Source: a virus. From it: DNA of 64,000 nucleotides. The DNA is taken from positions 1-64,000 of the IMG/VR virus record IMGVR_UViG_3300037042_004723, one strand, 5' to 3'. Positions 41,206-60,923 of the stretch are shown piece after piece. The translations under genes and the position numbers were made by a program. Each line of letters begins with the position of its first letter. The first letter of the stretch is position 1. The notes beneath the pieces were generated by a model that did no database searches, had not been told where the DNA came from, and saw nothing but the letters and a program-made list of their open reading frames with translations.

Positions 41206-41736
41206 CTAGCCCAGCAGCTGGGCCAGTGCAGCCTTCGCCCGGCTGGCCATGGCCACGGTCACGCCCACCTCACGGGCCGCATCGGTCCACGACTGGCTAC
41301 GCATGAACGCTTCAACAACGGCACGGTGAACCGGCTTGAGCGACGCAACGGCTGCGCGAACCCCCGCAATCTCCTGGCCCCTCACCATGTCGAGGTGCGG
41401 ATCACTGTCGGCGGGCAACGCCTCAGCCACGGGGATGCTGCGCCCGTCGTCGCTCACGACCTGGGGCATCTGAGACTCGAACCTGTGATGAGCCAAGCGC
41501 AGCCAGTTGTGTGCGCGGTACTTCGCAAAGCACGTGAAGTGTGACCGGGCCGAACCCTTGCCCGCATCGAAGGTACGCACGCCGTAGTCGAGCGCCTCGA
41601 CCATGACGCGGCTCATGCACTCGTCGAGGTCGCTCTCGGTGGAGTAGCGCGACCGGCGCAGCACGTTAGCCACGGTGGCGCGCATGGCGGGAAGGACGGT
41701 TAGAATCTCGGAGTGAATCGCTTTGGTGTTCAGCAT
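41206..41736 (-). CDS. ECF-like sigma factor 1
   Basis: About 176 aa. Region 2: STESDLDECMSRVMVEALDYGVRTFDAGKGSARSHFTCFAKYRAHNWLRLAHHRF, matching the ECF pattern FDxxxGSxxxxFxxxAxxRAxxxLR. Region 4 at the C-terminus: LKPVHRAVVEAFMRSQSWTDAAREVGVTVAMASRAKAALAQLL, a sigma-type HTH. Start MLNTKAI at 41736 is fixed by a class II promoter 7 nt away. Most divergent of five paralogues in the window; expected to bind host core RNA polymerase. Confidence 0.75.
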   Translation of the reverse strand: MLNTKAIHSEILTVLPAMRATVANVLRRSRYSTESDLDECMSRVMVEALDYGVRTFDAGKGSARSHFTCFAKYRAHNWLRLAHHRFESQMPQVVSDDGRSIPVAEALPADSDPHLDMVRGQEIAGVRAAVASLKPVHRAVVEAFMRSQSWTDAAREVGVTVAMASRAKAALAQLLG

Positions 41737-41772
41737 GGTAAGAATCATATACTAAGGGATTGTCAATGTCAA
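41737..41772 (-). promoter_or_regulatory. Class II promoter of sigma gene 1
   Basis: TTGACA (41767-41772), 17 nt, TATGAT (41744-41749), 7 nt, ATG. A second TTGACA is directly repeated at 41761-41766. Near-consensus sigma70 promoter giving a leaderless mRNA. Confidence 0.75.
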
Positions 41773-41857
41773 CACCTAAGATGGCCATACTGAAGATCTT
41801 TTTGAGAAAACTCAATCAAAGCAATGCAAGAGCGGGCAACCCTTGCGTTACTTCTGA

Positions 41858-42640
41858 TCAGCCGCCCGGCGTGGCCGAAGCTTCGAGCTTCGATCCGCAG
41901 CACGGGCAGAGCCCCGAGCGATCGGACTGGACGTGCAGCTTGCCCGCCTCCCACGACTCGCCCTTGTCCTGCTCCGTGCGATCGTACGCCTCTAATTGCG
42001 TCTTAGCGCCGAAGCCAGCCGCGCCATCACGATACCAATTGTTCGCGTTGTCGGTGTCCCAGCATGCGCCGCAAGCGTCACGATCGCCCGTGCAGTAGAT
42101 GGAAGCCCGAGCATTATCGAAAATGCTCATTTCCTCGCCGCTCACCTCGAACACGCGGGGCCGCGTGTAGCCGCCCCGGACATCCGCTCCGCCGTGGATT
42201 GAGAGCACCACGTATGCCTGGAAATCCAGAACGAAATAAGTGAACTGAATAACCTGGGAAAGGAGATCTTCCCCGTTGTACGTGTTGACGGTCACGGGAT
42301 TCTCATCATTGTAGATGCCACGGGGCCGGTTCTCGCCCTTGCCGAGGTACTCAAGCCAGAGCCCGACGAGCGCGAAACACGACTCGTCCTTGTGCTCCGC
42401 CCTCGCACAGAAGCGGCGGAACTTCTGATCCATGGACTTGGACAGCGTGAGGCGGTCCGCGAGCCAGTGGTACACGTTGAGCGTGACTTCGATCCCGTAC
42501 TTGAAATCGAGGGTAGCCAGTGGTTCCGCATCGAACTTGCGACCCTGGTTACGCTGCCACGCGCGACCGTTCGTGCCGCCGCTGTCGAGGAAGTGGGTGC
42601 CCGTGTTCTCCGTCAGCATATTTGCGATGGTGTTGTTCAT
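41858..42640 (-). CDS. Conserved hypothetical protein (260 aa)
   Basis: MNNTIANMLTENTGTHFLDSGGTNGRAWQRNQ..., PVTVNTYNGEDLLSQVIQFTYFVLD, YVVLSIHGGADVRGGYTRPRVFEV belong to a conserved family seen in phages and bacteria, with a C-terminal CPCCGSKLEA zinc pair added. Activity unknown. Class I promoter, divergent from the HicA-like gene. Confidence 0.75.
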   Translation of the reverse strand: MNNTIANMLTENTGTHFLDSGGTNGRAWQRNQGRKFDAEPLATLDFKYGIEVTLNVYHWLADRLTLSKSMDQKFRRFCARAEHKDESCFALVGLWLEYLGKGENRPRGIYNDENPVTVNTYNGEDLLSQVIQFTYFVLDFQAYVVLSIHGGADVRGGYTRPRVFEVSGEEMSIFDNARASIYCTGDRDACGACWDTDNANNWYRDGAAGFGAKTQLEAYDRTEQDKGESWEAGKLHVQSDRSGLCPCCGSKLEASATPGG

Positions 42641-42708
42641 GTCTCTACTACAACTGGACTAGCTGAGATTTTCGCGAAATTGCATGGGCCCTCAGTTGTA
42701 GTCTATGC

Positions 42709-42918
42709 ATGAGGAAACAAATATCAGTCCACACGGCAACACCTGGGGATCTCGTTCGTCTCGCGCGTGAGAATGGATACGAGATTCTCCCCGGCAGGGG
42801 AAAGGGATCACACATCGTCCTAACCAAAGCAGGTTCACCAAATGTCACAATCCCAGGCGGAAAGCATGTCGGCCGCAACGTGGTCCGCCGCATGATAAAG
42901 GTAATCATGGCAGCATGA
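42709..42918 (+). CDS. HicA-like mRNA interferase (orphan)
   Basis: 69 aa. DLVRLARENGYEILPGRGKGSHIVLTKAGSPNVTIPGGKHVGRNVVRRMIKVI fits HicA/YcfA: beta-alpha-beta dsRBD fold with the catalytic His in GSH and the PGxKxxGRxVVRRMIK end. No HicB antitoxin is next to it. As a leaderless orphan toxin it may degrade host mRNAs, or be controlled by a distant antitoxin. Confidence 0.75.
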   Translation: MRKQISVHTATPGDLVRLARENGYEILPGRGKGSHIVLTKAGSPNVTIPGGKHVGRNVVRRMIKVIMAA

Positions 42919-42960
42919 AGCAAGGCAAGGGGGGCTCGGCATCCCCCGAGCCACACACTC

Positions 42961-42980
42961 GGAAAACTCTAAGAGTTTTC
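42961..42980. terminator. GAAAACTC-type hairpin
   Basis: GGAAAACTCTAAGAGTTTTC between convergent genes. Confidence 0.7.
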
Positions 42981-42989
42981 TCTCCTGCC

Positions 42990-43136
42990 TCACGGCACCT
43001 TCACCGAAGTGGCTGCCGCCTGGGCGAACGAGGTTGTTTCGCCCGGTCGGGTCATGTTCATCTGGGCCATGCGAGACTTCATCCAGCGCCAGAACTCCTT
43101 GGCGCACCATGGACACTGTGGGCTGCAATTCTTCAT
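42990..43136 (-). CDS. Small zinc-type protein (48 aa)
   Basis: MKNCSPQCPWCAKEFWRWMKSRM...: CxxxCxxC at the N-terminus then basic/aromatic helix. ATG is 6 nt after a class I box, which is why I accept it. Confidence 0.55.
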   Translation of the reverse strand: MKNCSPQCPWCAKEFWRWMKSRMAQMNMTRPGETTSFAQAAATSVKVP

Positions 43137-43206
43137 GCAAAGACTACAACTGAGCTAGCTCAGATTTTCAGGTGAAAAAACCAGCTAGCTGAATTGTAGT
43201 AAGGGC

Positions 43207-43575
43207 ATGACCAAGAATACACTGACCGTTATCGTCTGCCGCGTGGGCCAGTTGGCCGTGGTTGAGCAGATGGCCCCTGGGCTCAAGCCCATGCAGGACA
43301 TCGTGGGCGGGCACATCGAGTGCGTCGGCCTGGAAGGCACGCCCTTTGAGCACGGTATCGACCTGTGGTGCGATGAAGAGTTCCTCCTCAAGGACTACAA
43401 GCCAAACCGAACGATCGGCCCCCGGCTTGTCATCCACGGTGATTTCTTCATCGCCGCTCATGACGGGGAGGGCGAAACCCTTGGGCTCACCGATGCAGAG
43501 GTCGCCCGCCTCTTGCCCAAGGTGAAGTCGTGGCCGGTCTTCCTTGGTGCCGGGCTCACGGTTCAGGAGGTCTAA
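43207..43575 (+). CDS. DUF3846-like protein
   Basis: 122 aa. LKPMQDIVGGHIECVGL, LWCDEEFLLKDYKPNRTIG and IHGDFFIAAHDGEG reproduce the DUF3846 pattern (LxxxVGGxIExxxL...NExGxLxxxPxNR...GxxxxxxxD). A widespread phage family without known function. Class I promoter. Confidence 0.72.
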   Translation: MTKNTLTVIVCRVGQLAVVEQMAPGLKPMQDIVGGHIECVGLEGTPFEHGIDLWCDEEFLLKDYKPNRTIGPRLVIHGDFFIAAHDGEGETLGLTDAEVARLLPKVKSWPVFLGAGLTVQEV

Positions 43576-43647
43576 CCGGTCGGGCTACGGCCTTGGCCCG
43601 GTAAAACTCTAGACGCCCGGAGGGCGCAAGCGCCGACGCCAGCCGGC

Positions 43648-43941
43648 CTAGCCGAGCACCGCGAACTCGTGGCGACCGCCGCCCAGCTTGCTCCCGCAGC
43701 ACCCGCACGAGCGCCACGAGAACTCATCACAGCCCTTGCCCGCCTCGCTGTCGAAGTTCGGCACGAGATTAGGGCCGAGCGACGCCAGCCCGGCGTTCAC
43801 CTCAGCGATGCGCGCGTCACGCTTGGCCTCAGCCTCAGCGCCCCGCCCGTTCATCTGGTAGTCGAAGATGGAGTAGTCGCCGTTGACGGCGACCGTGGTG
43901 CAGTCGTCGCAGAGTAGGATTCCGTCCCTGATGATTTCCAT
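43648..43941 (-). CDS. Zinc-binding hypothetical protein (97 aa)
   Basis: MEIIRDGILLCDDCTTVAVNGDYSIFDY... and C-terminal CGCCGSKLGGGRHEF: two zinc half-sites. Small conserved phage type (ILCDDCTxxAVNGD...FSWxxCxCCGSxLxGxRHxF). Class I, leaderless. Confidence 0.65.
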   Translation of the reverse strand: MEIIRDGILLCDDCTTVAVNGDYSIFDYQMNGRGAEAEAKRDARIAEVNAGLASLGPNLVPNFDSEAGKGCDEFSWRSCGCCGSKLGGGRHEFAVLG

Positions 43942-44011
43942 GTAGCAACTACAACTGAGCTAGCTCAGGTTTTCAGGTGAAAATACCGGCGCTCTCAGTT
44001 GTAGTAGCTAC

Positions 44012-44221
44012 ATGAAGAACAACATCACCGAGTACAGCGACGAGGAACTGAGCCTCACCGTCATGAACGACTACCAGCTCTACAAGATGCGCCGCCTACC
44101 GCTGCGCCACCTGCGCGCGACGCTGGAGGAGATTTTCATCTTCACCACCGATCAGTGGGTCGATCTGGTCGAGACCATCGAGGCCGACCTGGCCGAGGGC
44201 GACGAGGCGACGAGCAACTAA
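44012..44221 (+). CDS. Hypothetical protein (69 aa)
   Basis: MKNNITEYSDEELSLTVMNDYQLYKMRRLPLRHLRATLEEIF... helical, acidic. Class I promoter. Confidence 0.6.
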   Translation: MKNNITEYSDEELSLTVMNDYQLYKMRRLPLRHLRATLEEIFIFTTDQWVDLVETIEADLAEGDEATSN

Positions 44222-44246
44222 GGCTCGGGGCTACGGCCCACTGGAA

Positions 44247-44265
44247 GAAAACTCTAAGAGTTTTC
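44247..44265. terminator. GAAAACTC-type hairpin
   Basis: GAAAACTCTAAGAGTTTTC between convergent genes. Confidence 0.7.
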
Positions 44266-44311
44266 TGAACCACCTCACAGGCTGAGGCGGTTGCCTGTCA
44301 GATTCCGACGG

Positions 44312-44512
44312 CTAGTGCGTCTTCTTCCCGTAGCTGATGCGGAACCACACCCCGCCGTGCATCGCGGCGTCACTCTTGCCCACGAAGCATTTGAAGTCGG
44401 CGTGCTTCAGGTCGGCGGGCATGTTGCGTACGCCAAGCCTCATCGCCCCTGCGCGGGTCATGGGCTTGTCGAACGTGTGTAGACCGCATTTCACGAACAG
44501 CTTTTCGTCCAT
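44312..44512 (-). CDS. Hypothetical protein (66 aa)
   Basis: MDEKLFVKCGLHTFDKPMTRAGAMRLGVRNMPADLKHADFKCF... Class I, leaderless (TGTAGT, AGGGAT, ATG). Function unknown. Confidence 0.6.
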   Translation of the reverse strand: MDEKLFVKCGLHTFDKPMTRAGAMRLGVRNMPADLKHADFKCFVGKSDAAMHGGVWFRISYGKKTH

Positions 44513-44653
44513 ATCCCTACTACAATTCAGCCCTTAGAAAGTTTCGTGCGATGGAGCGAAAATTCAGTGTCAGCCAGTTGTAGTAAGACCACGAGAGCGA
44601 AATCAACCGGCCCCGATTCCCGGACGCCCCCCGATTCGCAAAGGATGATTCAG

Positions 44654-44995
44654 ATGAGCACCGCGACCAAGACCGTCCACGCCACCCTTCCCGTGTTCGT
44701 TGCCAAGCAGGAGGGCACCGTCGAGGTGACCCTCGATGAGGCGCTCGCCAACATCAAGGCGCTGCGCGCCCAGATGGCCCCGCTGGAGAAGGCCGAGAAG
44801 CAGCTTATCGAGCTGACCAAGGCCATGATGAAGGCCAAGGGCGTGGAGACGTACACCGCCCCCAGCGGTGACCGCGCGCTCTGGTCGGAGAGCCAGCGCA
44901 GCGAGTTCGACAAGGAGCTTGCCAAGGAGTTGCTCAAGGAGGATTGGGCGCGGGTCCACTCCTTCAAGACCGTCAAGAGCTTCACGGTCAAGTAG
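44654..44995 (+). CDS. Coiled-coil protein with SD-led start (113 aa)
   Basis: The class I promoter upstream is followed by ACG instead of ATG, giving a leader of about 65 nt; AAGGA sits 8 nt before the chosen ATG (MSTATKTVHATLPVF). VTLDEALANIKALRAQMAPLEKAEKQLIELTKAMMKAKG is a coiled coil. No family recognised. Confidence 0.6.
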   Translation: MSTATKTVHATLPVFVAKQEGTVEVTLDEALANIKALRAQMAPLEKAEKQLIELTKAMMKAKGVETYTAPSGDRALWSESQRSEFDKELAKELLKEDWARVHSFKTVKSFTVK

Positions 44996-45004
44996 GGTTC
45001 GTCC

Positions 45005-45065
45005 CCCGGGAGATAAAACCGGGCTCTGTGACCGCCAGCGCAGCACAACGCTGGACTACTGGCGG
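45005..45065 (+). other. Two stable hairpins after the coiled-coil gene
   Basis: CCCGG/CCGGG (45005-45022) and a nested stem CCGCCAG/CTGGCGG (45032-45065) with inner CAGCG/CGCTG. No T-run; may protect or process the 3' end. Confidence 0.45.
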
Positions 45066-45159
45066 CGTCGGTTCAGCGACGTAAACATCTGTGGGAGGCT
45101 GCACACGCCCACGGCGCTCGCTCCCTGGCGGTCAGGGGGCACTTTTCTTTTCGGCTCAA

Positions 45160-45179
45160 GAAAACTCTAAGAGTTTTCC
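45160..45179. terminator. GAAAACTC-type hairpin
   Basis: GAAAACTCTAAGAGTTTTCC between convergent genes. Confidence 0.7.
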
Positions 45180-45202
45180 GGTTGAGGGCCGAAGCCCAGC
45201 GG

Positions 45203-45664
45203 CTAGCCCCACGAGATGTGGCGGTTGCCAGCCTTCTCGCAGATGCGGAGCATTTGCTCCGTACGCATCCGCAGGTAGCCAGGCATGCGGTCGCCCACGA
45301 TCACGCGCGGGTTCCCCGCAACGCCCATGGCAGCCGCACGGTCCTCGCCCGAGAGGGCGGGGTCGTGGTTGCGCGATTCGTCCCACAGGCGACGACGGCA
45401 ACGTGCGGCCAGTTCGGGCGCAGGAATATCCCCACCGTAATCGGCGCGGATGCTAATCCACTCCATGAATTCCAGCGCGTTGCCGTTGCCCATGTTGACT
45501 TCGGTGTCTGTGCAGTCGGAGCACGAGAACATTTCGGGCGTCTTCTGATCATTTGCCCACGCGGCATCGCACGCATCGCACCAGCGTTGCGAGCAATCGC
45601 AACGGTAGGCCCTGACCATCTGGCCAGCCGCGTTCACTTCCGTGATGTAGAACGTGATGCTCAT
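45203..45664 (-). CDS. Conserved cysteine-rich phage protein (153 aa)
   Basis: MSITFYITEVNAAGQ...YRCDCSQRWCDACDAAW, FSCSDCTDTEVNMGNGNALEFMEWI, ELAARCRRRLWDESRNHDPALSGED, YLRMRTEQMLRICEKAGNRHISWG: a recognisable phage family with CDCSQRWCDACDAA zinc cluster. Function unknown. Its promoter is inside the 3' end of the upstream gene (ATGA overlap). Confidence 0.72.
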   Translation of the reverse strand: MSITFYITEVNAAGQMVRAYRCDCSQRWCDACDAAWANDQKTPEMFSCSDCTDTEVNMGNGNALEFMEWISIRADYGGDIPAPELAARCRRRLWDESRNHDPALSGEDRAAAMGVAGNPRVIVGDRMPGYLRMRTEQMLRICEKAGNRHISWG

Positions 45665-46179
45665 GGTTCTACTACAACTGAGGCAGCCTGGATTTTCATG
45701 GATTCGACGGCAAGGTCTTCGCTCTGATACACGTCCTTCCCATCGATCATGATGATGCGCGTGCGGATGGGCACCCACACGCCGTCACGGAGAGCCCTTG
45801 CCTCGCTCCACGTGGTCCGGTCGGCGAGCACGTAGCCCCTGCCAACCTTCTGAACCCACCCGATGATCGTCCCTGGGAACCTGTCTGTGTCGTACCAGAT
45901 CGGCGCGGTGACGTTGGCGTAGACGGTATCGCCCTCGATCCCGCCCTTGTCCTTGAAGTCACCCACGATGACGTAGGGGACCGTCGCGCCCTTGCCCATC
46001 ACGTTGTGCGCGTTGCGCTCGGTGTTGGCCTCGGTCAGCTTGTAGCCGTTGTAGCCGTAATCGCCCTTCCACATCGACGAGTGGCGGTAGGCGTACGAGT
46101 AGAGGTGAGCCGAGACCTTCGCCCCGTTCACGGCCAGCTGGACCGTCCTGCTGCGTAGCGAGTAGATGTAGATTCCCAT
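45661..46179 (-). CDS. Hypothetical protein ending in promoter-encoded SVVVEP (172 aa)
   Basis: MGIYIYSLRSRTVQLAVNGAKVSAHLYSYAYRHSSMWKGDYGYNGY..., beta-rich. Terminal AASVVVEP is imposed by the downstream class I promoter embedded in the gene. Own class I promoter 6 nt before ATG. Confidence 0.65.
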   Translation of the reverse strand: MGIYIYSLRSRTVQLAVNGAKVSAHLYSYAYRHSSMWKGDYGYNGYKLTEANTERNAHNVMGKGATVPYVIVGDFKDKGGIEGDTVYANVTAPIWYDTDRFPGTIIGWVQKVGRGYVLADRTTWSEARALRDGVWVPIRTRIIMIDGKDVYQSEDLAVESMKIQAASVVVEP

Positions 46180-46211
46180 GACCTAACTACAACTGGGCTC
46201 CCTGGTATTTT

Positions 46212-46319
46212 CATGAAAAAACCAGCCCGCCTAGTTGTAGTAAGACCACAGGAACAAACAAGCCAACCGGCCAAAAAATAAACACCCCAAACCACAGGAA
46301 TCAATCAATGCTCATATAA
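46212..46319 (+). ncRNA. Class I transcript without a start codon
   Basis: TGAAAA and TGTAGT are intact but the ATG position reads ACA. The leader has an AGGA-ATG pair for a 3-codon frame (MLI). Either an RNA gene or the long 5' leader of the frame at 46320. Confidence 0.4.
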
Positions 46320-46487
46320 GTGACGGTCAATCCCCTCTTGCTCTACCGTAAGCGTGGGGGTCCGAGAATATCTAAGGTAGCCGAGGGGGCTGATCTCCCC
46401 TCGGAGGAATCGCGTCGAGAGTTTTCCGAACGACACTGCATCGATTGCCTGAAAATCCCAGGTGGCCCAGTTGTAGTAGAACCATGA
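46320..46487 (+). CDS. Possible protein ending in PVVVEP (55 aa)
   Basis: GTG directly after the TAA of the 3-codon mini-frame; MTVNPLLLYRKRGGPRISKVAEGAD...KIPGGPVVVEP, with the next gene's promoter in its 3' end and an ATGA overlap, like the other SVVVxP genes. A CCGAGGGG/CCCCTCGG hairpin (46381-46404) lies within it, so an RNA is the alternative. Confidence 0.3.
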   Translation: MTVNPLLLYRKRGGPRISKVAEGADLPSEESRREFSERHCIDCLKIPGGPVVVEP

Positions 46488-46705
46488 GCAAGTTCAGCAT
46501 CAACGACACGGTCCGGGCGCTACACGACATCATCGACGGCGACGACGTGGTGTGCGCCCGCAAGGGCGACGAGGGCATCATCATCGACATCATCGAGGAC
46601 GAGCCGGACTGCCCGGCGGGCGCGGCCTTCGATGTGCTCTGGCCGCACATGATTACCATCACGAGCGCAAGCGAGATGGAACCGCTGGGCACGCTGCTCA
46701 ACTGA
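46484..46705 (+). CDS. Hypothetical protein (73 aa)
   Basis: MSKFSINDTVRALHDIIDGDDVVCARKGDEGIIIDIIEDEPDCPAGAAFDVLWPHMI looks like a small SH3-like beta barrel (VRxLxDI...VVxxKGDEGxIxxI). Class I, leaderless. Confidence 0.62.
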   Translation: MSKFSINDTVRALHDIIDGDDVVCARKGDEGIIIDIIEDEPDCPAGAAFDVLWPHMITITSASEMEPLGTLLN

Positions 46706-46732
46706 GCGGCTGGCCTTCGGGCTCGCAGGCGT

Positions 46733-46769
46733 TGGAAAACTCCTATGGTTATTCGGCCTAGAGTTTTCC
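46733..46769. terminator. GAAAACTC-type hairpin with long loop
   Basis: GGAAAACTC and GAGTTTTCC arms around CTATGG...CCTAG. Confidence 0.65.
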
Positions 46770-46812
46770 GCCCTGGGCGGCCGGGGTCGGGCCCGGCCGC
46801 CTCCTGTGGGGG

Positions 46813-47061
46813 CTAGGCCGCCACCTCCACGAACCCGTGGGAGACGAGCAGCGCCTCGAACTGGGCCAGCAGCTTGTCGGGCTTGCCCGAGAGCCCGAAC
46901 TCCTTACGGAGGATCGTGCTGCACTTGGGGGCCTTGGCGGTGAGCCGCATCCCTGGGTACTTGATCTCGAACTTGAGCCCGCTGAGGATCATCCGGAGTC
47001 GGATGCCGCCCATGGCGTAGGTCTTGTGATGCTCGATCTGCTCGGTCGCCTTGGTGTTCAT
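46813..47061 (-). CDS. Hypothetical protein (82 aa)
   Basis: MNTKATEQIEHHKTYAMGGIRLRMILSGLKFEIKYPGMRLT..., alpha/beta. Class I, divergent from the four-gene operon at 47142. Confidence 0.6.
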   Translation of the reverse strand: MNTKATEQIEHHKTYAMGGIRLRMILSGLKFEIKYPGMRLTAKAPKCSTILRKEFGLSGKPDKLLAQFEALLVSHGFVEVAA

Positions 47062-47141
47062 GTACCTACTACAACTGAGCTAGCTGGTATTTTCACAGCA
47101 CATCAAATGAAAATCCGGGGCACCCCAGTTGTAGTAGGTAC

Positions 47142-47581: not shown

Positions 47582-47585
47582 ACTA

Positions 47586-52637: not shown

Positions 52638-53159
52638 CTAGCGGAGCGCCTTCAGCTTGGCGGCGATTTCCCGGCGGCGGCGGGTGGCCGTGGCCGGCGA
52701 CCATCCCACCAGTGCGCCCGCCTCGGTCTGGGTCATGCCCCGGTTGATTGCCAGGATGAACGCGCGCTCGCCCTCGGGGAGCGTGGCAAGCGCCATGGCA
52801 AGCCACTGGCCTTCCTCGGTGCGCAGGGCATCCGCCCGACCGTCAGAGCCCGGAAGGCCGTCCACAATCCGGTCCATCCCTTCCGCCCGGTCTGAATCGC
52901 CGTCCGACTTCTTGGTCACCACGTCGTGGGTGCGGTAGCCCTCCGACTTGACGTGGTTGCGGGCAACGTTGCCCGCGAGCTTGGCGCAGAACGTCGCCAC
53001 CTTGCCACGGGTGGGGTCGAAAACCTCGCCCTTTTCCAGGCACTCAACAACGGAATTATTAAGGATATCCTCCTCGTCGCCGCGCTTGCCCACGGCGCGC
53101 AGGATGGCGACGGTCATAGCGGTGAGAACTTCGGTGGTCATGTCGTTGCGGTTGAGCAT
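52638..53159 (-). CDS. ECF-like sigma factor 2
   Basis: 173 aa. Region 2: DEEDILNNSVVECLEKGEVFDPTRGKVATFCAKLAGNVARNHVKSEGYR, matching ECF DxEDxxQ...FDPxRGxFxxWLxxIARNxAxDxxR. Region 4: LPEGERAFILAINRGMTQTEAGALVGWSPATATRRRREIAAKLKAL, a sigma HTH. Class II promoter TTGACT-17-TACAAC-6-ATG; starts with MLN. Closest paralogue is 53803-54306, so a recent tandem duplication. Confidence 0.82.
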   Translation of the reverse strand: MLNRNDMTTEVLTAMTVAILRAVGKRGDEEDILNNSVVECLEKGEVFDPTRGKVATFCAKLAGNVARNHVKSEGYRTHDVVTKKSDGDSDRAEGMDRIVDGLPGSDGRADALRTEEGQWLAMALATLPEGERAFILAINRGMTQTEAGALVGWSPATATRRRREIAAKLKALR

Positions 53160-53256
53160 TCATCAGTTGTAGCCTATCATGAGCCGATAGTCAAGGTATC
53201 TTTTGTCATGGTATGCAGATACTTGGCACGATCATTGACAATGCATTGGTATGACC
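53160..53256 (-). repeat. Conserved intergenic promoter repeat, copy 1
   Basis: About 95 bp shared with 58589, 59090, 59614, 60183 and 62531: TTGACT/TTGACA promoter, TACAAC or variant, then a conserved AACTATCTGCATTGC and a GGCAAAAGATACC block upstream of the -35. Confidence 0.7.
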
Positions 53257-53290
53257 GGAAAACTCTACGGCGCAAGCGTAAGAGTTTTCC
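53257..53290. terminator. GAAAACTC-type hairpin
   Basis: GGAAAACTCT and AGAGTTTTCC arms extended by TACG...CGTA around GCGCAAG. Confidence 0.7.
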
Positions 53291-53802: not shown

Positions 53803-54306
53803 CTAGCGGAGCGCCGCCAGCTTCTCGGCGATTGCCTTGCGGCGGCGGGTGGAGGTGGCCGGGGACCATCCGACCAGCGCGCCCGCCTCGGTCTGGCCCA
53901 TGCCCTGATTGATTGCCCGGATGAAGGCCCGTTCCTCGTCGGTGAGCGTGGCGAGCGCCATGGCAAGCCACTGGCCTTCCTCGGTGCGCAGGGCATCGGC
54001 CCGGCCATCGTCGCCCGGAAGGCCATCCACGATGCGCGTGGGCTCGCCTTCCTCGCCCTTGGTCACCACGTCATGCGAGCGGTATCCCTCAGCCTTGACG
54101 TGGTTACGGGCCACGTTGCCCGCGAGCTTGGCGCAGAACGTCGCCACCTTGCCCCGGGCGGCATCGAACGCCTCGCCCTTCTCCAGGCACTCCACCACGG
54201 AATCGTTGAGGATATCCTCAAGGTCGGCACGCTTGCCGACAGCGCGGACAATGGCGACGGTCATGGCGGTGAGGACTGCGGAGGTCATGTCGGTGTGGTT
54301 CAGCAT
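53803..54306 (-). CDS. ECF-like sigma factor 3
   Basis: 167 aa, close paralogue of factor 2: DLEDILNDSVVECLEKGEAFDAARGKVATFCAKLAGNVARNHVKAEGYRSHDVV (region 2) and LTDEERAFIRAINQGMGQTEAGALVGWSPATSTRRRKAIAEKLAAL (region 4). Class II promoter TTGCAT-17-TAAGGT-7-ATG, MLNHT start. Sequence around region 4 helix 3 differs only slightly, so the two may read overlapping -35 elements. Confidence 0.82.
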   Translation of the reverse strand: MLNHTDMTSAVLTAMTVAIVRAVGKRADLEDILNDSVVECLEKGEAFDAARGKVATFCAKLAGNVARNHVKAEGYRSHDVVTKGEEGEPTRIVDGLPGDDGRADALRTEEGQWLAMALATLTDEERAFIRAINQGMGQTEAGALVGWSPATSTRRRKAIAEKLAALR

Positions 54307-54397
54307 GGGATTGACCTTAAGCTATATCTTATCTCAATGCAACAACAATCGACAGGGATCTGCACTTATTTTTCCGGGCCAGCTTCCGGTGGCTTAC

Positions 54398-54794: not shown

Positions 54795-54831
54795 GGAAAA
54801 CTCTAATTAGGTTAGAGCTATTAGAGTTTTC
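54795..54831. terminator. GAAAACTC-type hairpin
   Basis: GGAAAACTCTAAT and ATTAGAGTTTTC arms: the stem is 11-12 bp here. Confidence 0.7.
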
Positions 54832-54871
54832 TTGACCACAACGGTCGGCGCGGACCGTCGTGGTCTTGCGC

Positions 54872-55093: not shown

Positions 55094-55123
55094 GTCTTTT
55101 TCAGCCTTTCGAAGGTTCGAAGG

Positions 55124-55315
55124 TTAGCGGACCTGCTTCGCGAGTTGCTCAGTGCTCGCCAGGAAGATATCGCTACCGCCGCACTTGGGGCACCCGTCGC
55201 ACCCGTAGGTAGCCTTTTCGGCCTGCTTCAAGGTGAGTAGCTTGCCGCACTCCTGGCAAGCCCAGTCCTTGATCGTGCGAGTCTTAACCTTCGTCGTCGT
55301 GGTGTTGTTCAGCAT
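55124..55315 (-). CDS. MLN-type zinc-ribbon protein (63 aa)
   Basis: MLNNTTTTKVKTRTIKDWACQECGKLLTLKQAEKATYGCDGCPKCGGSDIFL: two CxxC pairs. Class II promoter TTGACA-17-TACTGT-6-ATG fixes the start at 55315. Confidence 0.7.
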   Translation of the reverse strand: MLNNTTTTKVKTRTIKDWACQECGKLLTLKQAEKATYGCDGCPKCGGSDIFLASTEQLAKQVR

Positions 55316-55395
55316 TGATAGACAGTACACCTATTGACGTGCATTGTCAAGGTATCTTTTGCCTATCAATGTCGAATGTCTCGCAATGGGCGATA

Positions 55396-55440
55396 GAAAA
55401 CTCTAATGGGCTTTAGGCTCCCAATGATTACAGAGTTTTC
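55396..55440. terminator. GAAAACTC-type hairpin with long loop
   Basis: GAAAACTCT and AGAGTTTTC arms about 27 nt apart; loop contains GGGCTTTAGGCTCCC. Confidence 0.65.
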
Positions 55441-55490
55441 TATTGGACAGTTGGCGGGCTCGGTGTCCCGCTGTCCTTTAGAACTGTCCC

Positions 55491-55844
55491 TTAGGCGACG
55501 CCGAGGGCCTGCGCCACGTCAACAACCCAGTTGACCGGCTCGGGGTAGCGATGCACGCGGCCGTTATCGACCCGGCCCTGACGCATGGTGATGTTCGAGT
55601 AGCGCACCAGGGTGAAGCGCCACGTCTTCGTGGTCGGCTCCCAGCGGAAGCCACGCGCCTTGAGAGCGTTACGGGCCTGGTAGGCATTGCCGACCACGAT
55701 CTCCGTCTCGGTGTACTTGATCGAGATCTTCGCCTCCACGGCCTCCCACAGCGCGGCGCGCTTGAAGGTCTCGGCCATCATGGCGGCCATCTCGGCCATC
55801 TCGGGTTGCGTCTCGGCGGTGTCCGTCTCGGTGTGATTCAGCAT
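55491..55844 (-). CDS. MLN-type protein with ARN/RFxW domain (117 aa)
   Basis: MLNHTETDTAETQPEMAEMAAMM..., then VVGNAYQARNALKARGFRWEPTTKTWRFTLVRYS, similar to the phage family with T-x-W-x-x-x pattern following RGFRWxxxxKxW. Class II promoter with TTGACA 35 nt before ATG. Confidence 0.62.
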   Translation of the reverse strand: MLNHTETDTAETQPEMAEMAAMMAETFKRAALWEAVEAKISIKYTETEIVVGNAYQARNALKARGFRWEPTTKTWRFTLVRYSNITMRQGRVDNGRVHRYPEPVNWVVDVAQALGVA

Positions 55845-55912
55845 TCCCCTTTATCGCACGGACCGAGGTGCATTGTCAAGCATGTAATGCCATGCAATGC
55901 AGATAGTTGTAC

Positions 55913-55949
55913 GGAAAACTCTAAGCTCTGACAGTGGGGTGGAGTTTTC
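55913..55949. terminator. GAAAACTC-type hairpin with long loop
   Basis: GGAAAACTCT arm, CTGACAG in the loop, GAGTTTTC arm. Confidence 0.65.
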
Positions 55950-55993
55950 TGATGCGCTTGCGGCGCGCGGTCTGCGGCCTGCCCGGCGGGGCC

Positions 55994-56278
55994 TTACTCG
56001 CCCGGATCTCCGTAGGAGGATTCAATCTCGGCACCGCAGTGATCGCAGGGCATCGGCGGACCCTCCCAGTAAACATCAGCACCGATCAGCCGCCACTGCT
56101 TATCGGTGTCCGGGGCCTCGGACGCCTCGCTTCCGTTGTCGCCGTTGGCGCAGGCGGGGCACAGACACCCTCCGTCGGCCACGTAGTAGACCAGCGTGTA
56201 GCAGCCGATCGAGGTGAAGGAGTACAAACGACCATTGCCCATACGCGGGAGGGCGGCGGAAGCGGTGTTGTTCAGCAT
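55994..56278 (-). CDS. MLN-type conserved zinc protein (94 aa)
   Basis: MLNNTASAALPRMGNGRLYSFTSIGCYTLVYYVADGGCLCPACANGDN...DKQWRLIGADVYWEGPPMPCDHCGAEIESSYG. Matches a conserved phage/bacterial family (DIGCYPLxYxTxDxxxLCPxCxN...VxADVNWExPxLxCDHCxxRIESAYGE). Class II promoter TTGACA-17-TAAGGT-6-ATG. Confidence 0.75.
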   Translation of the reverse strand: MLNNTASAALPRMGNGRLYSFTSIGCYTLVYYVADGGCLCPACANGDNGSEASEAPDTDKQWRLIGADVYWEGPPMPCDHCGAEIESSYGDPGE

Positions 56279-56346
56279 GTACAGACCTTAGCAGGTCTTG
56301 CGTGTATTGTCAATCGCATAATGCCATTCAATGCAGATAGTTAGGC

Positions 56347-56384
56347 GGAAAACTCTAACCTATAAGCTGTTAAAGGGAGTTTTC
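56347..56384. terminator. GAAAACTC-type hairpin with long loop
   Basis: GGAAAACTCTAAC and GGGAGTTTTC arms; loop has TATAAGCTGTTA. Confidence 0.6.
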
Positions 56385-56419
56385 TTAGCGTGCGTCGGCC
56401 GGGCGAACCCGGCGGGCTG

Positions 56420-56641
56420 CTAAGCGCCGGTCGGGATGTACTTCGACCCCTTGATGAACGGGCCCCAGACGGTGAGACCACCCGAGGTGATCTCGATGGC
56501 TTCGTCCTCGCGGAGCGTGCGGTACATGTCGATCGCCAGGTTCCTGACGTCATCGAACGCGCGGCCCTGCTGCGCAGGGTGCGAGGAGATGGTCTCGAAG
56601 CGGGCGGCGGGCTTGGCAACTGCGATGTGGTAGTTCAGCAT
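56420..56641 (-). CDS. MLN-type hypothetical protein (73 aa)
   Basis: MLNYHIAVAKPAARFETISSHPAQQGRAFDDVRNLAIDMYRTLRED... Class II TTGACA-17-TAAGGT-6-ATG. Function unknown. Confidence 0.62.
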   Translation of the reverse strand: MLNYHIAVAKPAARFETISSHPAQQGRAFDDVRNLAIDMYRTLREDEAIEITSGGLTVWGPFIKGSKYIPTGA

Positions 56642-56726
56642 TTAATGACCTTAGCAGGTGATGGTTGCATTGTCAATGCATTGAATGCGTGACAATGATG
56701 AATTGCTTCGAGTGGCGGCGTATCCT

Positions 56727-56757
56727 GCCCCTACTACAATTGTGCTCGCCTGAATTT
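56727..56757 (-). promoter_or_regulatory. Orphan class I promoter
   Basis: TGAAAA and TTGTAGTA intact, but the next bases are GGGGCAGGATACG with no start codon; the class II promoter of the MLNYH gene follows 60 nt on. Probably the promoter of a cassette whose gene was deleted. Confidence 0.55.
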
Positions 56758-56775
56758 TCATCATATCAATGCAGG

Positions 56776-56811
56776 GGAAAACTCTAAGGTCTGACAGCAG
56801 GTAGAGTTTTC
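56776..56811. terminator. GAAAACTC-type hairpin with long loop
   Basis: GGAAAACTCTA and TAGAGTTTTC arms around GGTCTGACAGCAGG. Confidence 0.65.
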
Positions 56812-56843
56812 TTAACGCCTGACCGGGCGAACCCGGCGGGGCC

Positions 56844-57149
56844 CTAGAACATCCACTGAACCGGCGGGGCGTTCTCGCTCCACGCGGCGACCAGCATGTC
56901 TCGGTCGTCGTCGAACACAACAGGCTCGAACGACACCACGCACTCGCTCTCGGCCTGCGTCAGCTTGCGGTACTGACGGAGCGCGGCCTTACGCTCTTGC
57001 TTGGCCCAGTCCAGCCACCCGCAGTCGGCGCAGCAGGGGTCCCACACCTGGCACTGCCAGTCGATGAACGCTGCCAGGGCTTCCTCGATAGCCAGGTCGT
57101 TCTCGTGGTCTGCCAGCCCTTCGGCTAGCGCGGCTTGTCTGTTCAGCAT
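56844..57149 (-). CDS. MLN-type protein with SD start (101 aa)
   Basis: MLNRQAALAEGLADHENDLAIEEALAAFIDWQCQVWDPCCADCGWLDWAKQ... Unlike other MLN genes it is internal (second in its unit) and has AGGAGG 4 nt before ATG. CCxDC may bind zinc. So the MLN start persists even without a leaderless promoter. Confidence 0.65.
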   Translation of the reverse strand: MLNRQAALAEGLADHENDLAIEEALAAFIDWQCQVWDPCCADCGWLDWAKQERKAALRQYRKLTQAESECVVSFEPVVFDDDRDMLVAAWSENAPPVQWMF

Positions 57150-57199
57150 CTGTCCTCCTAGTGGTGATGACGTGGCGGGGCGCGCGAATCTGACGGGGG

Positions 57200-57337
57200 C
57201 TAGCCCATGACTCGCTGGAACGGGTCAGCGATGGCGATGGCTTGCGCCATGGTCATCTGCCCGATGGCTCGGCTACCATTGCGACCGAGGAGGGTCAGGG
57301 CGCGGCAGGAAACGACCTTCACGATGATTTGCTTCAC
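57200..57337 (-). CDS. Small protein with leaderless GTG (45 aa)
   Basis: MKQIIVKVVSCRALTLLGRNGSRAIGQMTMAQAIAIADPFQRVMG. Class I TGTAGT then GATAGC then GTG. First gene of a two-gene unit with the MLNRQ gene. Confidence 0.55.
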   Translation of the reverse strand: MKQIIVKVVSCRALTLLGRNGSRAIGQMTMAQAIAIADPFQRVMG

Positions 57338-57410
57338 GCTATCACTACAACTGTGCTCGGTCGGATTTTCAGGTGATTTTATCGAAGACCAGGCCGGGCT
57401 AGACCAGGCC

Positions 57411-57430
57411 GGAAAACTCTTAGAGTTTTC
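57411..57430. terminator. GAAAACTC-type hairpin
   Basis: GGAAAACTCTTAGAGTTTTC between leftward units. Confidence 0.7.
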
Positions 57431-57465
57431 TTGATGCAGCATCGGCGCGGTGCGCCGGGCCCCGC

Positions 57466-57852
57466 CTAGATGAGCGACAGGAGGGCCGCTCCGTCCGGCG
57501 TGGCCGGGGCCACGTTCCAGTGGGGGCCGAACGAGATCCCGACCACATCGGGCGTCTCATCCTGGCGCGCGTCGCCCATCACCGTGCCGATGATGTAGCT
57601 GCCATCGCGGGCCACCAGGGCCACGTTGCAGCCCAGGGAAGCGGCCACGGTGGCCTGCTTCGCGAAGATTAGCCGATCGGGGCCGATGAGGGCCTCGATC
57701 TCGGCCAGTCGCTCGGCGATGAACTCGGCCTCATCGTCGCCGCCACCGCAGCACCAGTCGCAACCCACCAGGGTGTCGCTCATGACCGCGCGACGCGCGC
57801 GGAGGGTGATGCGCTCGGAGAGGAGGAGGGCGACCGTGGAGTGGTTCAGCAT
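57466..57852 (-). CDS. MLN-type hypothetical protein (128 aa)
   Basis: MLNHSTVALLLSERITLRARRAVMSDTLVGCDWCCGGGDDEAEFIAERLAEIE... CxxCC motif near residue 32. Class II TTGCAT-17-TACAAC-6-ATG. Function unknown. Confidence 0.62.
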   Translation of the reverse strand: MLNHSTVALLLSERITLRARRAVMSDTLVGCDWCCGGGDDEAEFIAERLAEIEALIGPDRLIFAKQATVAASLGCNVALVARDGSYIIGTVMGDARQDETPDVVGISFGPHWNVAPATPDGAALLSLI

Positions 57853-57933
57853 TCATCAGTTGTAGCATGGTTACCTTGACAATGCAACAACTATCTACTA
57901 ACAATCGACTGTCAAGATCTGCGGATCCTGTTA

Positions 57934-57982
57934 GGAAAACTCGGGTTGGCGCAACGCAGTGCGTGGCCATATGAGAGTTTTC
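57934..57982. terminator. GAAAACTC-type hairpin with long loop
   Basis: GGAAAACTC and GAGTTTTCC arms; loop carries GGTTGGCGCAACGC and CCATATG. Confidence 0.6.
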
Positions 57983-58030
57983 CAAACCCACGGGCGAGAT
58001 CGGGCGGGGTGCCCGGTCGCCCCGGTCGGG

Positions 58031-58588
58031 CTACTCGTCGCCGTCCTCGTCGCCGTCCTCGCCGGACACAGCGGCCTTGAGCGCGGCGAGGAGCGCGGCC
58101 CGCTTGCGCGTGGCCTTGACGGCGTTCCAGCCGAACGCCTTGCCAGCGTCCCCGATGGACTCGCCCCGGATGAGGGCCCGGACGAAGGCCCGGTCGGTCT
58201 CGTCCTGGATCTCGGAGATCGCCAGGGCCAGATCTTGAGCCTCCATCGAACGGGCCACCTCGACCCGCCCATCGGCACCGGGCAGGGACTCGACGATCAT
58301 CTCGCCGCCATTCTCGCCCTCATCGTCGCTCGCCGTCACCACGTCATGCGAGCGGTAGCCCTCGGCCTTCATGTGGTTGCGGGCCGTGTTCCCGGCGATC
58401 TTGCAGCAGAAGTTGCTGAAGTTGCCACGGGCCGCGTCGAAGCTCTCGATCTGCTCCATGACGCGCACGCACGAATCGTTCAGGATGTCGTTCAGGTCGG
58501 CATTCTTGCCAACGGCGCGGACGATCGCGCCCGTCATGGATCCGATGGTGGTGGTGGTGATGATGGTCGGGACCGTGTGATTCAGCAT
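58031..58588 (-). CDS. ECF-like sigma factor 4
   Basis: 185 aa. Region 2: DLNDILNDSCVRVMEQIESFDAARGNFSNFCCKIAGNTARNHMKAEGYRSHDVV. Region 4: IQDETDRAFVRALIRGESIGDAGKAFGWNAVKATRKRAALLAALKAA, more divergent than in factors 2 and 3. Acidic tail GEDGDEDGDE. Class II TTGACT-17-TACAAC-6-ATG, MLNHT start. Confidence 0.8.
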   Translation of the reverse strand: MLNHTVPTIITTTTIGSMTGAIVRAVGKNADLNDILNDSCVRVMEQIESFDAARGNFSNFCCKIAGNTARNHMKAEGYRSHDVVTASDDEGENGGEMIVESLPGADGRVEVARSMEAQDLALAISEIQDETDRAFVRALIRGESIGDAGKAFGWNAVKATRKRAALLAALKAAVSGEDGDEDGDE

Positions 58589-58685
58589 TCATCAGTTGTA
58601 GCCTATCAAGAGCCGATAGTCAAGGTATCTTTTGCCATGCAATGCAGATAGTTTGCACTGTCCTTAACAATGCATTAACCTGACC
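58589..58685 (-). repeat. Conserved intergenic promoter repeat, copy 2
   Basis: TTGACT-17-TACAAC promoter plus the GGCAAAAGATACC and AACTATCTGCATTGC blocks; nearly identical to copies at 53160, 59090 and 59614. Confidence 0.75.
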
Positions 58686-58732
58686 GGAAAACTCTAAACC
58701 ACCATTGAGGGCACATGGCCTTTAGAGTTTTC
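58686..58732. terminator. GAAAACTC-type hairpin with long loop
   Basis: GGAAAACTCTAAA and TTTAGAGTTTTC arms: 12-bp stem. Confidence 0.7.
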
Positions 58733-58777
58733 TCCATGGCGGAAAAATCTGACGCGGTGCGCCAGCCCGCCGGGCTG

Positions 58778-59089
58778 CTACTCGGTGTAGCAGCCGGGGC
58801 AGGTGGTCACCCCGAGCGCGTCACAGTGGCCGCCCTCGTCGAGACGGTGGCCGACCGTGAGCCCGGCCCGGGTGGCGTCTTCGAGGGTAGCGCCCACGTT
58901 GACAGCGTTCGCGGCTTCGATCTCAGCGTCGCAGACGTCGCACGTCTCGACGGCGAACATTCTGATCATGCCAGGGTAAACGCTGGCAGTCGCATTCGAG
59001 AAACCCCAGTTCTTCGCCAGCGAACGGAGTGCCATAACGGCGAGGGGGAGGTGGCGGGTGGAACCAAAGAACTTCGTGTGATTCAGCAT
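58778..59089 (-). CDS. MLN-type cysteine-rich protein (103 aa)
   Basis: MLNHTKFFGSTRHLPLAVMALRSLAKNWGFSNATASVYPGMIRMFAVETCDVCDAEIEAANAVNVG...HCDALGVTTCPGCYTE: two CxxC pairs. Class II TTGACT-17-TACAAC-6-ATG. Function unknown. Confidence 0.62.
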   Translation of the reverse strand: MLNHTKFFGSTRHLPLAVMALRSLAKNWGFSNATASVYPGMIRMFAVETCDVCDAEIEAANAVNVGATLEDATRAGLTVGHRLDEGGHCDALGVTTCPGCYTE

Positions 59090-59186
59090 TCATCAGTTGT
59101 AGCCTATCAAGAGCCGATAGTCAATGTATCTTTTGCCTTGCTATGCAGATAGTTGGCACGATCCTTGACAATGCACTGGTCAGACC
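59090..59186 (-). repeat. Conserved intergenic promoter repeat, copy 3
   Basis: Same 95-bp unit as at 58589, with only a few substitutions. Confidence 0.75.
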
Positions 59187-59232
59187 GGAAAACTCTGTTT
59201 AACCATTAAGGCACATGGCCTTTAGAGTTTTC
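59187..59232. terminator. GAAAACTC-type hairpin with long loop
   Basis: GGAAAACTCT...AGAGTTTTC; shares the GGCACATGGCCTTTAGAG half with the hairpin at 58686. Confidence 0.65.
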
Positions 59233-59268
59233 TCCCAGCACTGGCGGCCCCGGCGGCGGGCCGGGGGG

Positions 59269-59613
59269 CTAGCGGTCCAGCGGGTGGCAGGTGTTGATCA
59301 CCTGTCCCATGTAGTCCATTGCGGCCAGGAAGTCCCCAGCGGGGCGGATCAGCAAGGCGCACAGGTCGCCCGGCAGCATGGCCAGGGCATCCGCGCAGAA
59401 GGCGTCCCACACGTGACCCGGCTGGAAGATGAACGGGGCCAGGTCCGCCAGGTCGATCATCCCGTCCTCCCACTGGTCACGGCGCTCGGCGTCCGTGGTG
59501 GCCAGGAGGGTGCCGAAGGACGGCAGGGCGGCCACGGTGGCCTGGTAGGCGACCCATGCCTCCATGGTGGCAACGGTGGCGGGGGAGGTGGCGGGAGCGG
59601 TGTTCTTGAGCAT
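59269..59613 (-). CDS. MLK-type hypothetical protein (114 aa)
   Basis: MLKNTAPATSPATVATMEAWVAYQATVAALPSFGTLLATTDAERRDQWEDGMIDL... helical. Class II TTGACT-17-TACAAC-6-ATG. Function unknown. Confidence 0.62.
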   Translation of the reverse strand: MLKNTAPATSPATVATMEAWVAYQATVAALPSFGTLLATTDAERRDQWEDGMIDLADLAPFIFQPGHVWDAFCADALAMLPGDLCALLIRPAGDFLAAMDYMGQVINTCHPLDR

Positions 59614-59710
59614 CCATCAGTTGTAGCCTATCAAGAGCCGATAGTCAAGGTATCTTTTGCCATGCAATACAGATAGTTGGCACACATCTTGACAATGCAT
59701 TGGTCAGACC
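59614..59710 (-). repeat. Conserved intergenic promoter repeat, copy 4
   Basis: Same 95-bp unit: TTGACT promoter, GGCAAAAGATACC, AACTATCTG and TGACAATGCATTGG-like distal part. Confidence 0.75.
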
Positions 59711-59757
59711 GGAAAACTCTATTTAGTCATTAAGCATTAGCTTAAGTGGAGTTTTCC
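59711..59757. terminator. GAAAACTC-type hairpin with long loop
   Basis: GGAAAACTC and GAGTTTTCC arms; loop has TTAGTCATTAAGCATTAGCTTAA, nearly the same as at 62630. Confidence 0.65.
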
Positions 59758-59791
59758 TGTCTGGAGTCGGCGCGGTGCGCCGGCCCGGATC

Positions 59792-60169
59792 TCAGAGCGA
59801 AGCGCCGGCCAGATAGGCGGCGATCACGAGCCGATCTGCCTGAGCGCGGAGGATGGCATCGGCCTGATCGTCCTCCTGCGCGAGCTGGCGATACCAGTTC
59901 TCCTCGCGTCGCCAGCTCGCCAGCTCGGCGAAGTAATCGAAATAACGCTCCTCGTCGCTCGTCATGTGGTACTCGTCCCACATGTCAGCGTCCATGATTG
60001 CGCACTCGGCGCAATCACAGCCCCGGAGCGGACAGGCCGTCCAGAACGGGGCCACGTCCAGATCCAGGCCGTTGTCGGCCAGAGTCATCGCCTTGCGTCG
60101 GGCAAGGTTCGCGAGGTGGAGCTTGTGCCCCTGGTAGCGGTGCATCGTGTGGCCGGTGGTGTTCGACAT
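59792..60169 (-). CDS. Hypothetical protein with CxxCDCxxC cluster (125 aa)
   Basis: MSNTTGHTMHRYQGHKLHLANLARRKAMTLADNGLDLDVAPFWTACPLRGCDCAECAIMDADMWDEYHMTSDEERYFDYFAELASWRREE. Start at 60169 is set by TTGACA-17-CATGAT with 9 nt to the ATG. Cysteine cluster may bind zinc or iron. Confidence 0.6.
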   Translation of the reverse strand: MSNTTGHTMHRYQGHKLHLANLARRKAMTLADNGLDLDVAPFWTACPLRGCDCAECAIMDADMWDEYHMTSDEERYFDYFAELASWRREENWYRQLAQEDDQADAILRAQADRLVIAAYLAGASL

Positions 60170-60182
60170 CTGAGAACCATCA

Positions 60183-60269
60183 TGGACTATCATCGCCCGA
60201 TTGTCAAGGTATCTTTTGCCATGCAATGCAGATAGTTTGCGCGTACCTGACAATGCATTTACTTTAACC
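60183..60269 (-). repeat. Conserved intergenic promoter repeat, copy 5 (shorter)
   Basis: GGCAAAAGATACC and AACTATCTGC-like blocks are kept; the promoter-proximal part is diverged. Confidence 0.65.
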
Positions 60270-60305
60270 GGAAAACTCCATTAATGGCCTGGTAATGGAG
60301 TTTTC
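60270..60305. terminator. GAAAACTC-type hairpin
   Basis: GAAAACTCCATTA and TAATGGAGTTTTC arms: 13-bp stem around ATGGCCTGG. Confidence 0.7.
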
Positions 60306-60347
60306 TTGACAGGCCTAGTCGGCGCCGGAGGGCGCCCGGCCCTGAGG

Positions 60348-60923
60348 CTAGATCTTGTCGGCCAGAGCGGCCGTGATCGAGCGGTAGCGGCGCGTCGTGG
60401 TCGCGGGTGACCAGCCCAAGAGGGCGCCGGCCTCGCACTGGCCCATGCCCCCGGCCATCGCATCCAGGAACGTCTGCGAGTCAGCGTCAAGCGCGAGCAT
60501 GGCATCGGCCAGAGCCTTGCGCTCGAAGTAGCGCACCATGTCAGCGGCGCCATCCACGCCCACGAGCGTATCGACGAGCGCGACCTCGGAGTCATCGTCG
60601 CCGAGGTTCGTCTCGGAGTCGTGGTTACGGTTCGCGTGAGCCTTGCGCCAGTTGCGCGCAGCGTTCGCAGCGATGCGGCACGCCCACGAGACGATCGACC
60701 CCTTCGACCAGTCGAACGACTCGGCGTGCTCCATCATGCTCACGAGCGCATCCTGCACAACGTCAGACGTTGCGCTCGTCTCGCCGATGGTACGCTCGAC
60801 GGTGCGCGCCATGGTCTTGAACAGGTCGGGGTTGCCGATCTGGCTCATGACGTCCAAGCGAGTCTCGCTCGACGCGCCCGTGGAAGTGAAACCGTTGTGA
60901 CCGATGTTCGTGTGATTCACCAT
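60348..60923 (-). CDS. ECF-like sigma factor 5
   Basis: About 191 aa. Region 2: TSDVVQDALVSMMEHAESFDWSKGSIVSWACRIAANAARNWRKAHANR, the most canonical of the set (VxDALxxMxxxxxxFDxxKGSxxSWxxRIAxNxARNxxR). Region 4: LDADSQTFLDAMAGGMGQCEAGALLGWSPATTTRRYRSITAALADKI. Starts MVNHT: relative to its MLNHT relatives a 7-bp stretch between GAA repeats appears deleted, moving the start into the -10 region. Confidence 0.82.
   Translation of the reverse strand: MVNHTNIGHNGFTSTGASSETRLDVMSQIGNPDLFKTMARTVERTIGETSATSDVVQDALVSMMEHAESFDWSKGSIVSWACRIAANAARNWRKAHANRNHDSETNLGDDDSEVALVDTLVGVDGAADMVRYFERKALADAMLALDADSQTFLDAMAGGMGQCEAGALLGWSPATTTRRYRSITAALADKI

Follow-up and report, generated by a model that had tools for sequence, protein, structure and literature searches.

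Could a single phage region encode an entire family of extracytoplasmic function (ECF)-like sigma factors, and which promoters would such a family serve? This question is raised by a 64,000-nucleotide stretch of viral DNA (hereafter, the window) that forms the first 64 kb of the 197,279-base virus record IMGVR_UViG_3300037042_004723, in which a sequence-only reading had proposed five sigma-like paralogues at the head of a transcriptional cascade. Our analysis gave good support for these five proteins (six in the record) being phage-encoded group 4 ECF-like sigma factors, and we consider it probable that, read first by the host, they redirect the host core polymerase to two related sets of phage promoters, here called island (class I) and arm promoters. 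Large genes beyond the window matched a T4-type major head protein, a head maturation protease, a tail sheath, the UvsX recombinase and a DnaB-type helicase, and the head protein was ~27–37% identical to gp23 of many T4-like phages; these matches indicate that the virus, which comes from a metagenome, is a large T4-like tailed phage.

The sigma-like proteins and their relatives

All five open reading frames (ORFs) were verified at the positions first proposed, and all of them lie on the minus strand, which the sequence-only reading had omitted. From the chosen ATG starts, they encode proteins of 167–191 aa, namely paralogue A at 41206–41736 (176 aa from the ATG at 41736, with the ORF opening at 41748), B1 at 52638–53159 (173 aa), B2 at 53803–54306 (167 aa), B3 at 58031–58588 (185 aa) and C at 60348–60923 (191 aa; the ORF opens at 60932 and the start is uncertain). 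Pairwise identities ranged from 21 to 81%, and the proteins were alignable throughout, beyond their common MLN start, in agreement with the proposed paralogy. The shared start was rejected as the source of this apparent paralogy, given that the homology covers regions 2 and 4 and that unrelated neighbours also begin with MLN. The count of five held within the window, but not for the record, where a search with TIGR02937 and the family profile returned the known proteins plus a sixth, more diverged member at 64278–64799 on the minus strand, just past the window (TIGR02937, 5e-6); the record thus has at least six. A weak Sigma70_r4 match at 167734 on the plus strand was discounted, as it fell in a 326-aa frame without a region 2 match. 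No anti-sigma factor was recognised adjacent to the sigma genes.

The region 2 core FDxx(R/K)G was present in all five proteins (FDAGKG, FDPTRG, FDAARG, FDAARG and FDWSKG), with FD and G being invariant, and a putative C-terminal helix-turn-helix (HTH) was seen in their alignment. By contrast, the region 4 motif GWSPATxTRR, which had been attributed to the whole family, was recovered in the recognition helices of B1, B2 and C (52638, 53803 and 60348), whereas B3 (58031) carries GWNAVKATRK and A (41206) GVTVAMASRA.

With regard to family profiles, TIGR02937 (sigma70-ECF) matched C (E-value 1.3e-10), B1 (8.7e-9), B2 (1.3e-7) and B3 (9.5e-6). Paralogue A alone was weak, its sole NCBIfam match being PRK13919 (7e-6); its ortholog in a second phage (L011:3574-4095; see below) nevertheless reached 2e-10 with TIGR02937, and the ortholog of C 1.3e-13. 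Sigma region 2 (PF04542) was matched by C (5.3e-10), B3 (1.7e-8), B2 (4.9e-4) and the two orthologs (1.8e-11 and 9e-5), with three of seven proteins exceeding the cut-off. A and B1 gave no PF04542 match; region 2 is supported in B1 by its full-length match to TIGR02937 and in A by the ortholog. B1 also matched phrog_1740 (2.4e-9). When the family profile was compared with the PDB, the best matches were RpoE (3e-9), SigK (2e-7) and CnrH (5e-7); a mixed alignment of eight members was too diverse to serve as a search query.

Predicted structures, which had been named as a check on the sigma fold, were in line with these results. AlphaFold2 models of C (mean predicted local distance difference test score, pLDDT, 74.8; predicted template modelling score, pTM, 0.43) and A (78.8 and 0.47) were compared with the PDB by Foldseek, and in both cases ECF sigmas came first (sigmaE, SigH, SigK, SigL, CnrH and RpoE; probability 1.00, E ~1e-3), at low identities of 14–22%. 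Phage RpoE-like sigmas were on top in a comparison with viral models. The region 4 HTH is spanned by the full-length TIGR02937 alignments, and the C-terminal helices were modelled at pLDDT ~90. A layout of two helical domains joined by a lower-confidence linker within 167–191 aa fits the ECF plan (regions 2 and 4, no region 1/3, ~165–200 aa).

Viral contigs were searched with the sigma proteins, and one related virus was found. Its two records, G001 and G002, were 100% identical over 12 kb and were therefore counted as one second phage. Among prokaryote genomes, no close relatives of the sigma proteins were found; among phage records, there were none for B2 and A, and weak matches alone for C and its ortholog. 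The second phage has two family members, orthologs of A (50% identity) and of C (55% identity). The best match of B1, B2 and B3 in that phage is the ortholog of C, and they lack separate counterparts there; the three look like lineage-specific duplications. B1 and B2, which are 81% identical and located in repeated blocks, showed a ratio of nonsynonymous to synonymous substitution rates (dN/dS) of ~0.28, which suggests constraint on both copies.

Promoters of the sigma genes and of the phage-specific classes

According to the sequence-only reading, all five sigma genes lie behind class II (host-type) promoters. We scored sigma70 matches as the count of 12 consensus bases and tested them against shuffles, and on this measure the claim was clear for three genes. 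Upstream of A, TTGACA-N17-TATGAT (41744–41772, minus strand, 7 nt before the ATG) matched at 11/12 positions, and none of 2000 shuffles was as good (p < 0.0005). B1 and B3 are each preceded by TTGACT-N17-TACAAC on the minus strand (53166–53194 and 58595–58623, respectively; 9/12, shuffle p ~0.03). The sites of the other two genes, also on the minus strand, are degenerate and no better than shuffles: TTGCAT-N17-TAAGGT for B2 (54314–54342, 6/12 by eye), whose −10 is the same as in three clear class II genes, and TATCAT-N17-TATGTA for C (60923–60951), which overlaps the assumed ATG and was picked by comparison with the regions upstream of 61481 and 57852. A start-anchored matrix detected no class I or arm promoter before any of the five. 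In the second phage, the sigma genes at 56122 and 50346 had sigma70 matches of 10/12 (p 0.003) and 8/12 (p 0.13).

Class II sites are concentrated in a minus-strand cluster of small genes (55124–63632), most of which start ATG-CTG/CTC-AA(C/T/G) (MLN/MLK) and many of which lie behind TTGACA/T-N17-TAnnnT. MLN/MLK starts are common among the class II genes of 53–65 kb and in both phages, though the genes are apparently unrelated, and some class I genes of the second phage also open in this way; a signal for leaderless initiation may include the first codons of these genes. Repeats as long as 147 nt, reaching beyond the promoter, are seen in the regions upstream of class II genes (53121–53267, 58550–58696, 59051–59197, 59575–59721 and 60134–60280), and could represent duplicated units or shared operator sites.

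The second promoter class has the consensus tGAAAA-N17-TGTAG-N7-ATG. With the start-anchored matrix, it was found before 62 start codons of this phage and 41 of the distant relative, or 103 phage promoters across the two, whereas the 11,170 upstream regions that had been shuffled gave none. The window holds 47 exact matches to GAAA-N16-TTGTAGT-N(4-7)-ATG, where 0.01 would be expected by chance, and most of them fall at 23635–57370, on both strands, as island promoters of the form tGAAAA-N16-TTGTAGT-N6-ATG. The statement that most other units use class I applies to this part (~23–57 kb), but not record-wide, where 62 class I or arm starts stand against 312 genes called by a simple in-house caller. 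The −10 lies ~6 nt upstream of the start codon, and this fixed distance suggests a transcription start on the ATG or directly beside it; class I transcripts are thus probably leaderless. Divergent gene pairs with a common or nearly common −35 box numbered 11 and 9 in the two phages. The SigW-type promoter of bacteria, TGAAAC-N16-CGTA, has a similar geometry, and that of class I is ECF-like.

Real as it is, class I found no support as a single class. Island promoters (23–58 kb here, 37–55 kb in the second phage) have the −10 TTGTAGT, and those of the flanking arms TGTAG-N-TA, with GAAAG commoner at the −35. Arm promoters precede minus-strand genes of the left arm and genes of the right arm, the latter mostly on the plus strand. 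Within the window, the arm type was represented on the minus strand at 7485–7517 (GAAAT...TTGTAGATA), 13597–13629 (GAAAG...CTGTAGATA), 15848–15880 (GAAAG...TTGTAGATA) and 22390–22422 (GAAAA...TTGTAGGTA), and two further minus-strand phage promoters lie outside the island at 7108–7140 (GAAAG...TTGTAGTTA) and 14900–14932 (GAAAA...TTGTAGTTA). In this phage, GTAGNTA occurred in 6 island promoters and was absent from 45, compared with 9 and 1 outside the island (p = 2.6e-6); the corresponding values in the second phage were 0 and 26, and 9 and 4 (p = 3.4e-6). Letters of the −35 and −10 covaried in both (p ≤ 0.0005 in the second phage and 0.0045 here, each the best of 36–40 tests).

The sigma family might consist mostly of redundant copies of a single specificity, kept for gene dosage or arisen by recent tandem duplication, as the 81% identity of B1 and B2 in a repeated block and the great preponderance of class I would allow. 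Such redundancy seems rather unlikely to us, since A, B3 and the B1/B2/C group differ in the recognition helix, the distant phage retains both A and C, the two promoter subclasses show −35/−10 covariation and the dN/dS of B1 and B2 suggests that neither copy is free of constraint. The contrary proposal is that about sixty promoters, all leaderless, are shared out by diverged recognition helices between two or more sub-regulons (island and arms), and that the sigma family and the promoter sets expanded together in one lineage; we give this possibility a little less than an even chance of being correct.

Within the class I region, and restricted to it, palindromes of the form GAAAACTC-NN-GAGTTTTC were observed in both phages, with 24 copies at 20722–57412 of the record and 14 at 34489–55523 of the second phage. 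All are intergenic, and 11 here and 5 in the second phage lie between convergent genes; perhaps they are terminators for both strands or sites for a DNA-binding protein.

A predicted sigma cascade and its weighing

Several observations link the sigma family to class I, over two lineages only. A search of 2.9 million viral contigs with the class I pattern yielded 88 stretches, and among the matches listed, more than one match occurred only in contigs of the related phage. A stricter pattern gave 17 matches in 85,000 prokaryote genomes (257 Gb), all of them single, with no contig holding more than one. Class I was retained in 13 of the 18 reciprocal best-hit pairs between the phages in which either member has it, and no pair switched between classes I and II. 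Furthermore, the A and C sigma types are kept in both phages, and both phages have both promoter types; two conserved sigma types alongside two conserved promoter types suggest a one-to-one pairing.

Two other roles for the proteins were weighed. They could be sigma-derived HTH regulators that bind DNA but not core polymerase, with class I being read by a host sigma. The HTH of region 4 is indeed the most divergent part among the paralogues, a generic HTH was among some of the Pfam matches, and the host might possess an alternative sigma with class I specificity. However, the best-conserved part is region 2, which serves core binding and −10 melting (PF04542, 5e-10, 1.7e-8 and 1.8e-11), and the genome search left no sampled species with such a regulon at that stringency, so that we regard this explanation as improbable. 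Alternatively, the sigmas might target host promoters, thereby reprogramming or blocking host transcription, while something else reads the phage promoters; among phage sigmas, those of the sporulation type are able to act on genes of the host (PMC9429907). Yet dozens of ECF-like phage promoters need a reader, and apart from this phage, only the second one, which likewise encodes these sigmas, was found to have them; we therefore hold this idea to be very improbable.

We return to the cascade envisaged by the sequence-only reading, which has good circumstantial support except for the part placing all five sigma genes behind class II: several of these genes have host-type promoters, class I is ECF-like, the promoter class is conserved and co-occurs with the family, and no multisubunit RNA polymerase was found in the phage record by a search whose controls were positive in 14/14 genomes. 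Given this last result, the phage sigmas would use the host core. A search for single-subunit RNA polymerases gave no matches but was uninformative, as its controls were silent too. The T4 gp55-type late promoter TATAAATA was not among the upstream k-mers emerging from 110–197 kb, and gp33 was not searched. At infection, host RNA polymerase carrying the housekeeping sigma would recognise TTGACA-N17-TAnnnT promoters, several of which precede sigma genes, and would thus make the products of an early class II cluster (53–64 kb and 41.7 kb), sigmas among them. The phage sigmas would then bind the host core polymerase and steer it to tGAAAA-N17-TGTAG-N7-ATG promoters, probably with at least two specificities, one for the central island (TTGTAGT) and one for the flanking arms (TGTAG-N-TA, more often with GAAAG).

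A number of points count against this reading. The case is built from sequences alone, and just two independent lineages are known (G001 and G002 being the same virus), too few to pair sigma with promoter. Most single-protein profile scores are under curated cut-offs: for TIGR02937 (42.9 bits), the ortholog of C passes with 50.9 bits, C and the ortholog of A have 41.1 and 40.5, and the rest are lower. Pfam region 4 is weak, at 0.02 at best and in one protein. Whole-chain template modelling (TM) scores against the PDB were 0.3–0.4, which we ascribe to the relative placement of the two domains not being fixed in the models; only region 2, taken by itself, superposes well (TM ~0.6). The B2 and C genes lack a clear sigma70 promoter, though by eye they resemble degenerate neighbours in the cluster, and the arm class is small in this record, with 10 sites outside the island.

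Phage sigma cascades as such are known from SPO1 and phiEco32, and in those of SPO1 and SP10, early host-read genes come first; what appears to be new here is the number of sigmas, their ECF type and the paired promoter classes. In phiEco32 and its relatives (Kuravirus, phage 7-11 and Privateer), an ECF-like sigma such as gp36 acts on the host core polymerase, as predicted here, and the copy in SU10 is preceded by a host-consensus promoter of its own (PMC4281155, PMC7881722, PMC4331800). That group, however, has one sigma per phage, compared with five to six paralogues here, and few promoters, with an extended −10 and no recognisable −35 (PMC5333181), compared with 62 that combine a clear −35 and −10, fixed spacing and an adjoining start codon. 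The assumption that phages carry none or one sigma factor is too strict, as SPO1 and SP10 have three each (PMC9429907); these belong to unrelated phages and, as far as that source describes them, are not presented as ECF type, whereas those found here make up a single family of paralogues. The jumbo phages of group 2, also T4-like, share the gp23-type capsid with our phage, which also has UvsX, and are reported to have minimal and RpoD-like sigmas and gp33 but no RNA polymerase of their own; as far as that source describes the group, it presents neither an ECF expansion nor a leaderless ECF-like promoter set (PMC7824862). Bacterial ECF sigmas (RpoE, SigK, CnrH and SigW) provide the best profile and fold matches of the phage proteins, but the identity in structure matches is 14–22% and class I was not found as a genomic regulon. 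Single sigma factors are common among phages, but a limited search of the open literature found no report of a phage with four or more, nor of so large a family with promoter sets of its own.

If the cascade is correct, the two phages would offer a compact, naturally occurring collection of sigma/promoter pairs in which the spacing between −10 and start codon is fixed. Both the splitting of specificity among paralogous ECF sigmas and the timing of many small genes, promoter by promoter, in a phage lacking a multisubunit polymerase of its own could then be tested directly. The promoter set also aids the annotation of a phage region rich in small genes of unknown function.

Further features of the two phages

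Additional features were noted outside the sigma system. Two minus-strand genes carry domains of inteins and homing endonucleases: that at 961–3804 encodes an SNF2 helicase with Hom_end, and that at 9019–10779 combines Hint and LAGLIDADG. Small-gene blocks are duplicated at 26316–26615 and 28507–28806 (87% identical) and at 28265–28549 and 29018–29302 (90% identical). Finally, ARAGORN recognised ~47 tRNA-like genes in one stretch of the second phage (G002, ~108–129 kb) and ~8 at 91–98 kb of this record.

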